Part shown: piece after piece, positions 7,772 through 59,056 of the stretch | Numbering within the stretch: the first letter of the stretch is position 1 | Layout of the letters: every line of letters starts with the position of its first letter | Assembly: GCA_017303905.1 (NCBI GenBank) | Contig: JAFLBH010000004.1 | Span: 124,001 to 188,000 of the forward strand | DNA: 64,000 nt | DNA from: Bacteroidota bacterium | Lineage (GTDB): Bacteria > Bacteroidota > Bacteroidia > B-17B0 > Aurantibacillaceae | Reading direction: 5' to 3' | Notes under the pieces: generated by a model | Databases searched by the model: none | The model's input: the letters and a program-made list of their open reading frames with translations, nothing else | Told to the model about the DNA's origin: nothing | Translations under genes and position numbers: made by a program

Positions 7772-8722
7772 ATGAGTAAAAAAATTCTGGCCAACGATGG
7801 CATCGATGCAATAGGAAAAGAATTATTGGAAAAAGCAGGTTTTACGGTTGTAACAGATAAAGTTGCACAAGAAAATCTGATTCAGGAATTAAACGATAAA
7901 GGCTATGTGGCTCTAACGGTCCGCAGCGCTACCAAAGTTCGTAAAGATGTAATCGACGCTTGTCCGAATTTAAAAGTTATTGCACGCGGCGGTGTTGGAA
8001 TGGATAACATTGATGTAGATTACGCGAAAAGCAAAAACATAAACGTCATTAACACGCCCGCTGCTTCTTCTAACTCGGTGGCCGAATTGGTTTTTGCACA
8101 CTTATTTAATGCGGTACGTTTTTTATACGACAGTAACCGTCAAATGCCAAGTAATGGAGATACAAAATTTGATGATCTTAAAAAGAAATATGCCAAGGGT
8201 GTAGAATTAAGAGGAAAAACCATTGGTATTGTCGGATTCGGTAGAATTGGGCAATACGTTGCAAAAATGGCGCTTGGACTAGGCATGAAAGTTTTAGCCT
8301 TCGATCCGTATGTAACAGAAGCAACCATTGAAATTGAAATCGACGGAGCTTCACATGTTAAGGTAAAAATAACACCGGTTGGATTGGATAAAGTCATTCA
8401 AAACAGTGATTTCATCACATTCCATGTACCAGGAGGAAAACTAATTACCAAACACGAATTAGCTTCCATGAAAAACGGAGTGGTGCTTGTTAATGCGGCA
8501 CGTGGCGGAGTAATTAATGAAGACGATTTATTAGAAGCCTTAAACAGCGGAAAAGTTTCACATGCTTGTTTAGATGTTTTCGAAAACGAACCAAAACCTT
8601 CTGTTGCCATTTTAAATCATCCGAAAATTTCTTTAACTCCTCATATTGGTGCAGCTACTAACGAAGCGCAAGAGAGAATTGGGGTGGAGTTGGCAGAGAA
8701 AATTATAGCCGCATTGAGTTAA
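7772..8722 (+). CDS. serA: D-3-phosphoglycerate dehydrogenase (short form)
   Basis: The 316-residue NAD-dependent dehydrogenase catalyses the first step of serine synthesis from 3-phosphoglycerate. The Rossmann motif GIVGFGRIG is at 152-160. The catalytic set is R244 ([10 protein letters not shown]), E273 (FENEP) and H291 (LTPHIGAAT). The protein stops after the catalytic core, so it lacks ACT and ASB regulatory domains and is probably not inhibited by serine through the usual route. A frame opening at TTG 7706 would translate the terminator hairpin, so ATG 7772 ([10 protein letters not shown]) is chosen. It is followed by a four-helix-bundle gene inserted before the DUF1015 gene. Confidence 0.95.
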
Positions 8723-8750
8723 TAGTTGAGAGTTCGGAGTTCGTAGACTG
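8718..8750 (+). repeat. Left arm of inverted repeat around the four-helix gene
   Basis: Directly at the serA stop lies a repeat containing AGTTCGGAGTTCGTAG. The same pattern recurs inverted at the 3' end of the four-helix gene (about 9200-9235). Its first 17 bases, GTTAATAGTTGAGAGTT, recur exactly as a reverse complement at 11262-11278. Confidence 0.65.
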
Positions 8751-8787
8751 GAGAGAAAATTATTTGAAAATAATCTATAGAATTAAC

Positions 8788-9234
8788 ATGTCAGAAGAAA
8801 AAAAAGAATTATTTGATTTTGAAAAACTAAAAGTTTACGAGAAATCATTAGATTTTGTTGATAATGTTTATGAATTAACAAAATCATTCCCTTCATCTGA
8901 ACAATATGGAATTACCTCCCAATTCAGAAGAGCCGCGTGTTCAATTTCATTGAACATTGGCGAAGGATCTGCCGGCTCAAGAAAAGAATTTATTCAATTT
9001 TTAACTATTTCGCTACGCTCCGTACGCGAATGCGTTGTTTGTACTACTATTATATCAAGACAAAAATATATTGATCAAAAAACTGAATTACAATTAAGAA
9101 ATAAACTAATAGAGATTTCCAAGATGATTAGTGGGCTAATTAGTTACCTTGAAAGTAGTCAGGCCAAAAATAATCTTTCGGAACCATTCGAAGACTATCT
9201 CCGAACTACCAACTCCGAACTACTAACTAATTAA
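8788..9234 (+). CDS. Four-helix-bundle protein (S23/IVP family)
   Basis: This 148-residue protein matches the S23 / 23S intervening-sequence four-helix-bundle family: DFEKLKVYEKSLDFVDNVYELT, the core ITSQFRRAACSISLNIGEGSA, EFIQFLTISLRSVRECV and a last helix IEISKMISGLISYLE. The family includes proteins encoded in 23S rRNA intervening sequences and the Avd accessory protein of diversity-generating retroelements; no reverse transcriptase is present here. ATG 8788 (MSEEKKELFDF) is preferred over a TTG at 8764. The tail FEDYLRTTNSELLTN is encoded by the right arm of the flanking inverted repeat, so the repeat supplies the C-terminus and the stop codon. The gene sits as an insert between serA and DUF1015. 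Confidence 0.9.
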   Translation: MSEEKKELFDFEKLKVYEKSLDFVDNVYELTKSFPSSEQYGITSQFRRAACSISLNIGEGSAGSRKEFIQFLTISLRSVRECVVCTTIISRQKYIDQKTELQLRNKLIEISKMISGLISYLESSQAKNNLSEPFEDYLRTTNSELLTN

Positions 9235-11155: not shown

Positions 11156-11280
11156 TTGGGTGTTCGTTGTGAGGAGATGATAACGTGATAAAAAACAAAG
11201 TACTTAAAATGTAAAATAATATTTATGCTTTCCTTCTCCGAACACCTGTCTCCAAACTACCAACTCTCAACTATTAACTA
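11146..11280. repeat. Degenerate inverted-repeat element without a four-helix gene
   Basis: Left arm AAGTTCGTAGTTGGGTGTTC begins inside the yggS 3' end. The right arm (11238-11280) contains CCGAACACCTGTCTCC and CAACTCTCAACTATTAAC, whose reverse complement resembles the left arm and also the repeat after serA. About 60 A/T-rich bases without an open frame separate the arms. The element fills the whole gap between yggS and the EamA gene. Confidence 0.6.
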
Positions 11281-11282
11281 AC

Positions 11283-15737: not shown

Positions 15738-15865
15738 AAACCCCTCTGTCCTGCGGACACCTCCCCTTAGCAGAGGAGAAATCAGTCGTGGTGATAATAT
15801 GCAATTTTAGCAACGGACAGCTTCTCCCCCTGCTAAGGGGGAGTCCGCGTAGCGGGAGGGGGTTT
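15738..15865 (-). mobile_element. MITE-like repeat, short form
   Basis: A 128-bp element with imperfect terminal inverted repeats, AAACCCCTCTGTCC... at one end and ...GGGAGGGGGTTT at the other. Internal hairpins are formed by CTCCCCTTAGCAG-type and CTCCCCCTGCTAAGGGGGAG (15824-15843) words. It is the reverse orientation of the unit at 58387-58512, with which it shares the internal words ATCAGTCGTGGT and AGCAACGGACAGCTTCTCCC in the same order. No coding capacity. Confidence 0.75.
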
Positions 15866-15918: not shown

Positions 15919-15972
15919 TAAACCCCTCTGTCCTTCGGACATCTCCCCTTAGCAGGGGAGAAATCAGTCGTG
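15919..15972 (-). repeat. Solo arm of the MITE-like repeat
   Basis: This segment repeats one arm only: AAACCCCTCTGTCCTTCGG, the hairpin GTCCTTCGGAC, then CTCCCCTTAGCAGGGGAG and AAATCAGTCGTG. It nearly duplicates 15738-15793 and the A arms at 58.4-59.0 kb. The rest of the 15723-16205 gap holds an isolated 12-bp palindrome GTCTTCGAAGAC (16022-16033) and the transaldolase promoter. Confidence 0.7.
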
Positions 15973-58324: not shown

Positions 58325-58386
58325 GTAACAAAGCTAAGAATTTAATTTTTGGCAGATGTAGTTTGATAAATAACCCTCCTCGCCCG

Positions 58387-58512
58387 AACCCCCTCGCCCT
58401 GCGGGCACTCCCCCTTCGCAGGGAGAGAAGCTATCCGTTGCTAAAAATGCAAACATACCACGACTGATTTCTCCCCTGCTAAGGGGAGATGTCACGCAGT
58501 GACAGAGGGGTT
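58387..58512 (+). mobile_element. MITE-like repeat, short form (copy 1)
   Basis: A 126-bp element from AACCCCCTCGCCC to AGAGGGGTT. The B arm contains the hairpin around CTCCCCCTTCGCAGGGAG. The A arm (TTCTCCCCTGCTAAGGGGAG and a GTCACGCAGTGAC hairpin) lies next to it, with the joint words GTTGCTAAAAATGC and CATACCACGACTGATTT. It is the reverse orientation of 15738-15865. Confidence 0.75.
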
Positions 58513-58543
58513 TAAATCCTAAATTAAATTCTGCTTGTTATAT

Positions 58544-58732
58544 AACCCCCTCCCGCTACGCGGACTCCCCCTTCGCAGGGGGAGAAGCTGTCCGTCGCTA
58601 AAGATGCTTAATCATACCACGAAAAAATTCTCCCCTTATAAGAATAGCTGCTTTTAATTACTAACAATGCACATTCATACCACGACTGATTTCTCCCCTG
58701 CTAAGGGGAGATGTCCGAAGGACAGAGGGGTT
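58544..58732 (+). mobile_element. MITE-like repeat, long form (copy 2)
   Basis: A 189-bp element with the same arms as copy 1 but with an extra internal block of about 60 bases (TTAATCATACCACG..., then CTTATAAGAATAGCTGCTTT and TAATTACTAACAATGC). The A-arm end carries the CGAAGGAC variant. Confidence 0.75.
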
Positions 58733-58773
58733 ATTTGAATGAGTAGTTTAATTAAAAAAAATATTCAAGTTAT

Positions 58774-58965
58774 AACCCTCTCGCCCTGCGGGCACTCCCC
58801 CTTCGCAGGGGGAGAAACTGTCCGTTGCTAAAGATGCTTAATCATACCACGAAAAAACTCTCCCCCTTATAAGAATAGCTGCTTTTAATTACTAACAATG
58901 CGCATTCATACCGCGACTGATTTCTCCCCTGCTAAGGGGAGATGTCACGCAGTGACAGAGGGGTT
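58774..58965 (+). mobile_element. MITE-like repeat, long form (copy 3)
   Basis: A 192-bp element almost identical to copy 2, including the internal block, but with the ACGCAGTGAC variant in the A arm. The rest of the 58325-59056 gap consists of short A/T-rich spacers between the three copies. Confidence 0.75.
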
Positions 58966-59056
58966 TATCTACCATAAGAGTTAATAGCAGGAATTTTGCA
59001 TAAAAAACAATGGTTTAAATAATAATATCTCCTTATTTTCGTTAATTCCAAAAACT

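Follow-up and report, generated by a model that had tools for sequence, protein, structure and literature searches.

A 64,000-nucleotide stretch of a Bacteroidota genome (hereafter the window) carries three palindromic elements side by side in an intergenic gap near 58 kb, with relatives near 15.7 kb. The locus raises two questions: what kind of element these are, and which protein could have spread them. An earlier note, made from the sequence alone, had proposed a family of non-autonomous or REP-type repeats mobilized by a transposase encoded elsewhere, such as a REP-associated tyrosine or IS200-like enzyme. We compared the elements with further copies in the same genome, with related genomes, and with candidate partner genes across bacterial phyla.

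Architecture of the window elements

Two elements of about 126–128 bp, two of 189–192 bp, and a solo arm at 15919–15972 had been described. All were recovered, the elements at 126, 126, 189, and 192 bp and the arm with slightly narrower bounds:

58372–58386, + strand: solo tag AACCCTCCTCGCCCG before the first element (from sequence; similar solo tags occur at other copies)
58387–58512, + strand: short element, 126 bp, an inverted pair of tag-hairpin arms (boundaries; folding z −5.3)
58544–58732, + strand: long element, 189 bp, whose extra block opens with a truncated second right-arm start (sequence, BLAST, boundaries)
58774–58965, + strand: long element, 192 bp, 92% identical to the element at 58544–58732 (BLAST, boundaries)
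15739–15864, − strand: short element, 126 bp, at the same site in the sister genome G052 (boundaries, G052 comparison)
15921–15972, − strand: solo right arm, also common to G052 (sequence, BLAST, G052 comparison)

The 58-kb trio and the copy at 15739–15864 end in AACCCC...GGGGTT, as the note had it, with AACCCT as a variant at the left end, and boundaries are consistent among copies. Within an arm, the tag AACCCCTC is followed by hairpin 1 (e.g., TGTCC-TTC-GGACA) and hairpin 2 (TCTCCCC...GGGGAGA); the tag reads AACCCCTC / AACCCCCTC, in place of GTAG or CGTC. The additional central block ascribed to the long form is present, and its description can be refined: the block opens with an incomplete repetition of the right-arm start (CATACCACGA...TTCTCCCC is readable near both 58612 and 58674), which suggests partial duplication from within the element more than insertion of unrelated sequence.

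For the stem pattern, 17 matches were counted in the 64-kb window, where dinucleotide shuffles predict 0.16, and the internal hairpins that had been proposed are borne out by single-strand folding (z = −2.7 to −5.3) and by covariation. Across 22 arms from the genome itself and from G052, 95.2% of stem cells are paired versus 84.8% in shuffles, a level above that of every shuffle; 38 compensatory, both-side changes were counted versus 12.7 in shuffles, and 8 of the 14 stem pairs changed on both sides. About 33 BLAST matches in some 16 clusters were found in the genome, and these further copies support a non-autonomous, REP-type, gene-free family. Terminal inverted repeats and the lack of a gene are also MITE-type features; the listed flanks of family copies, inspected by eye, displayed no consistent target-site duplication of the kind that the note had thought worth seeking. 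Rfam returned only subthreshold matches to unrelated families. PADLOC gave only weak partial matches.

Several neighboring repeats were observed along the way. A second small family, CTCCGAACTACCAACTCTCAACTATTAACTAA, occurs in direct and inverted copies between ORFs of the window (8717–8751, 9195–9230, and 11232–11281). Elsewhere in the genome, a TCCCGATAGCTATCGGGA-type palindrome lies in the hairpin-2 loop of an element at G000:C1:1570525-1570687 (L261, compared with L287 on G052:C34; also L254 and L256), inserted there in this genome but not in G052. The reverse case, an extra palindrome in the hairpin-1 loop of G052, was seen at C3:573677; hairpin loops seem to attract insertions of other palindromic repeats. 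Arrays of solo tags, with AACCCCTCTGTCA repeated three times ahead of a complete element, occur at L262 (G000:C1:1767066-1767110) and at L289 (G052:C17), and at C2:230541 the sister genome G052 has one additional 16-bp tag copy; successive insertions at tags may have left such arrays behind.

A DUF559 gene as candidate partner

The genome encodes two Y1_Tnp proteins (RAYT-like, IS200-like; L035 and L036), which would be the natural partners under the transposase proposal. Their genes are flanked by palindromes of their own, AGTCCCGTAGGGACGACC and CGCCCTTTAGGGCG, and no window-type stem was found within 1.5 kb of either; as both lie amid different palindrome families, the IS200-like/RAYT candidate was rejected. 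Polypyrimidine-stem palindromes do adjoin each of four stand-alone genes encoding a DUF559 domain. One of these (C1:525169) sits amid three complete window-family elements, another (C3:515091) is preceded by one such element, and the remaining two have their own families of related palindromes. The DUF559 genes inspected lie between host genes and are bounded by hairpins, with no intron or intein placement apparent among them. About 1.3 kb from the window-family DUF559 cluster lies a genuine vsr gene (G000:C1:523187-523405; L342, L206), which has an SOS-type box of its own.

The DUF559 product neighboring the window family is about 120 residues long and matches Pfam DUF559 (PF04480) with an E value of 1.5e-28 (99.3 bits, cut-off 20.6). 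A predicted model of the C1:525169 product (pLDDT 87.6) resembles 3hrl and the catalytic domain of I-Bth0305I and, to a lesser degree, Vsr; I-Bth0305I (PDB 3r3p) is also recovered by profile (E 1.6e-6). The protein is accordingly predicted to be a nuclease of the Vsr/I-Bth0305I fold. No established role for DUF559 was found in the open-access papers searched.

The association between gene and hairpin was quantified using a perfect 7-bp polypyrimidine/polypurine stem with at least four G/C and a loop of up to 20, located within 300 bp of the gene, a criterion framed after viewing loci of the host family and then applied unchanged across phyla. Within the host family, 40 of 45 stand-alone DUF559 genes possess such a hairpin versus 19 of 284 control ORFs at the same loci. 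For the wider sample, all species genomes were scanned, a procedure that favors relatives of the query; its 80 loci include Pseudomonas, Acinetobacter, Chloroflexota, Planctomycetota, Patescibacteria, and others. Here the counts were 49/62 for stand-alone DUF559 genes and 4/137 for control ORFs; in both samples, control ORFs were compared without matching for intergenic length. Only one of 18 DUF559 domains in long proteins had the hairpin, as did none of 11 true Vsr genes of related genomes, whose products are similar in fold and size. Several of the DUF559 misses display imperfect hairpins or repeats that run into ORF ends. On this evidence, the apparent partnership of hairpin and DUF559 gene recurs across many bacterial phyla; among the open-access papers that our searches listed, we found no report of it. 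An alternative measure, the inverted similarity of a gene's two flanks, proved weak (18/44 above the control 95th percentile) and was set aside for the hairpin test.

A second shared feature is a putative SOS box. The dyad CTAY-N5-RTAGCAA has 24 occurrences genome-wide versus 15 for a reversed-pattern control, and the genes downstream include recA, ruvB, and dinB (identities read from the translations and not from a search), a vsr, one Y1_Tnp, and all four DUF559 genes. Its core, CTAY-N5-RTAG, is found upstream of 4/4 DUF559 genes plus recA, ruvB, and dinB, and the dyad agrees with the CTAA-N5-TTAG type of LexA site described for Bacteroidetes (PMC8565304). In a broader set of 45 DUF559 genes, 15 have the core (12 of 17 in the genus), compared with 12 of 359 controls. 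The Y1_Tnp gene L036 (G000:C5:325232) has an SOS-type dyad in front and dinB just downstream.

Repeat types, gene clades, and insertion history

In a tree of DUF559 proteins, different repeat types fall in different clades. The CCCCTCTCTA..TAGAGAGGGG type belongs to the clade of L033, L070, L075, and L077, the TTCCCCCTTTGAAAAAGGGGGTTAGGGGGATT type to that of L071, L084, L098, and L101, and the window type is carried by a clade of its own. Protein and repeat similarity are correlated (rho 0.34, 0/5000 permutations, uncorrected for host relatedness). For one type, an exact 18-mer was detected in 9 of 87 genomes: in all five where an intact cognate gene had been sampled, and in four of the remaining 82. 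Typing covered part of the DUF559 genes in the 87 genomes. As judged from these sequence comparisons, repeat type follows DUF559 clade.

Within the genus, the query that gave 33 matches in its own genome gave 15 in G052, 7 in G053, 1 in G054, and none in four other genomes. Each of the four genomes with matches has a DUF559 gene of the matching clade. The correspondence between repeat and gene across the genus is good but not perfect, because G058 yields about five short window-type arms with a longer query and no matching-clade gene was sampled there, and because G056, with no matches, has a matching-clade gene and diverged repeats.

No precise empty site was found for the 58-kb cluster: G052, G053, and G058 hold other sequences at this position, and G055 has a short gap. 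In G052, the region orthologous to window positions 58340–59000 (L244, on C52) contains an unrelated repeat (GCCAAAAAGTAACCAAAAAACTCTTGATGCCGAAAGGCG...), and G053 and G058 contain other palindromes. Given these different repeats at the same site, the gap looks like an insertion hotspot. A scan of G052 for virtual empty sites indicated that several clusters are common to both genomes. The DUF559 cluster c4 (C1:524693-525765) is absent from G052, but its flanks are rearranged there, and the clean evidence for insertion comes from a sister repeat family.

In that family, a site between two amidohydrolase-like genes (named from sequence, not by search) is occupied by a repeat-DUF559-repeat unit in G034 (475 bp), G011, and G012, and is empty in G005 (89% identity over the joined flanks), G015, G016, G035, and G003. 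At the same site, G029 has a decayed DUF559 gene with stops, and G026 has a gene-free arrangement of about 130 bp in which both repeats and only a scrap of the DUF559 start persist. In the filled genomes, the right repeat apparently runs in frame into the beginning of the downstream coding sequence. Among the congeners compared, only G054 has a further unit of this kind (443 bp, L071). From the filled, empty, decayed, and G026 alleles at one site, together with the G054 unit, sequence comparison establishes for the sister family that repeat-gene-repeat units of 443–475 bp are insertions and that a gene-free, MITE-like pair arises from such a unit by deletion of the gene.

Interpretation and relation to known systems

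Taken together, these observations make it probable that the window elements are non-autonomous, REPIN-like units served by an SOS-controlled DUF559 nuclease, not by a RAYT. The basic unit would be a polypyrimidine tag, AACCCCTC, followed by hairpins and present singly or as inverted pairs, as in REPs and REPINs, with the cognate stand-alone DUF559 gene seated between units. DNA damage would lift SOS repression of this gene, and the nuclease would recognize its own family's tag-hairpin, which might be extruded or single-stranded, and nick or cut at the end of that hairpin. We infer that repair or strand transfer could then copy the unit to a new, usually intergenic site, sometimes with the gene between two units, and that gene loss would leave the MITE-like pairs and solo arms encountered in the window. 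Against this reading, no movement has been observed, and neither a target-site duplication nor an exact junction rule was found.

Three other explanations were weighed. Movement of REP/MITE elements by an IS200/IS605-like tyrosine (HUH) transposase, with DUF559 as a passenger, would agree with the REPIN-like architecture and with the two Y1_Tnp genes in the genome, one of which lies about 4 kb from two long elements. The different palindrome families around both genes, with the window-type stem missing within 1.5 kb, speak against it, and a passenger would not explain the specificity for DUF559 across phyla; we consider this explanation very improbable. A homing-type DUF559 gene might instead insert in or beside palindromes that another agent spreads, the repeats being its target and not its cargo. 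The fold shared with the homing endonuclease I-Bth0305I, the position of the gene between two repeats, and the excess of repeats over genes are all compatible with homing. However, at two closely examined sites most relatives have neither gene nor repeats, and repeat type changes with DUF559 clade. The sole repeat-only allele seen, that of G026, retains a scrap of the DUF559 start and hence derives from a gene-bearing allele. Homing therefore seems unlikely.

Lastly, the repeats could be maintained because they serve the cell (in transcription termination or mRNA stability, or as nucleoid or repair sites), with DUF559 acting there as a repair enzyme and mobility being slight or extinct. Such a role would suit the covarying stems, the intergenic positions, and the SOS-type box at DUF559 genes. 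It accords poorly with lineage-specific presence and absence at single sites, with the clustering of repeats, and with repeat arms that read into neighboring coding sequence, and we give it little credence.

Whether the window elements represent a bacteria-wide class, in which a single-domain Vsr-like DUF559 nuclease is the only protein and each clade spreads its own tag-hairpin family, appears to us evenly balanced. Such a class would explain many CCCCTC...GAGGGG-type palindromes that have lacked an explanation. Since REP families without a known transposase have been noted (PMC3733652), linking these orphans with DUF559 would make both testable: each nuclease would have a named set of DNA substrates within its host genome, and for many intergenic palindromes there would be a candidate agent, possibly one activated by DNA damage. 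E. coli K-12 would offer an immediate laboratory system in ycjD, a DUF559 gene adjoined by CCCTCACCCTAACCCTCTCCCC-type repeats (L346 6196-6425, strain MG1655). The ycjD-side repeat occurs at a median of 19 places per genome and is present in 5395 of 5426 E. coli genomes. A place that covers most of the query is found in only 3606 genomes; the repeats therefore occur even in genomes lacking the full ycjD-side match. In strains lacking eefRABCD, ycjD occupies the fabI-sapF gap (PMC12817139). BoxC, listed with 22 copies of about 50 bp in E. coli (PMC2267715), resembles the ycjD-side repeat in copy number and is a candidate for the same explanation.

Among characterized proteins, Caulobacter VsrA (CCNA_02930) is likewise a DUF559 protein, with induction in the DNA damage response reported (PMC12907096); the available part of that source describes a putative mismatch-repair endonuclease linked to cytosine methylation and contains no link to repeats. 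I-Bth0305I and other Vsr-like (EDxHD) homing endonucleases have a related catalytic fold by profile and structure, whereas the DUF559 genes inspected here appear to lie outside introns and inteins and are flanked by multicopy hairpins. Bacterial MITEs share the inverted ends and the lack of a gene, as in the ~130-bp pair left after gene deletion in the sister family, but here no target-site duplication was seen and no DDE-type or classical transposase was identified as partner. The closest parallel is found in the REP/REPIN-RAYT systems (REPtrons; PMC3733652), which also combine short tagged hairpins, single or in inverted pairs, mostly intergenic and multicopy, with a small gene that has units of its matching family on either side. 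They differ in that the HUH tyrosine transposase of those systems is replaced here by a PD-(D/E)XK-type DUF559 nuclease and the GTAG tag by AACCCCTC, and in that the RAYT-like genes present here have different repeats at their flanks.
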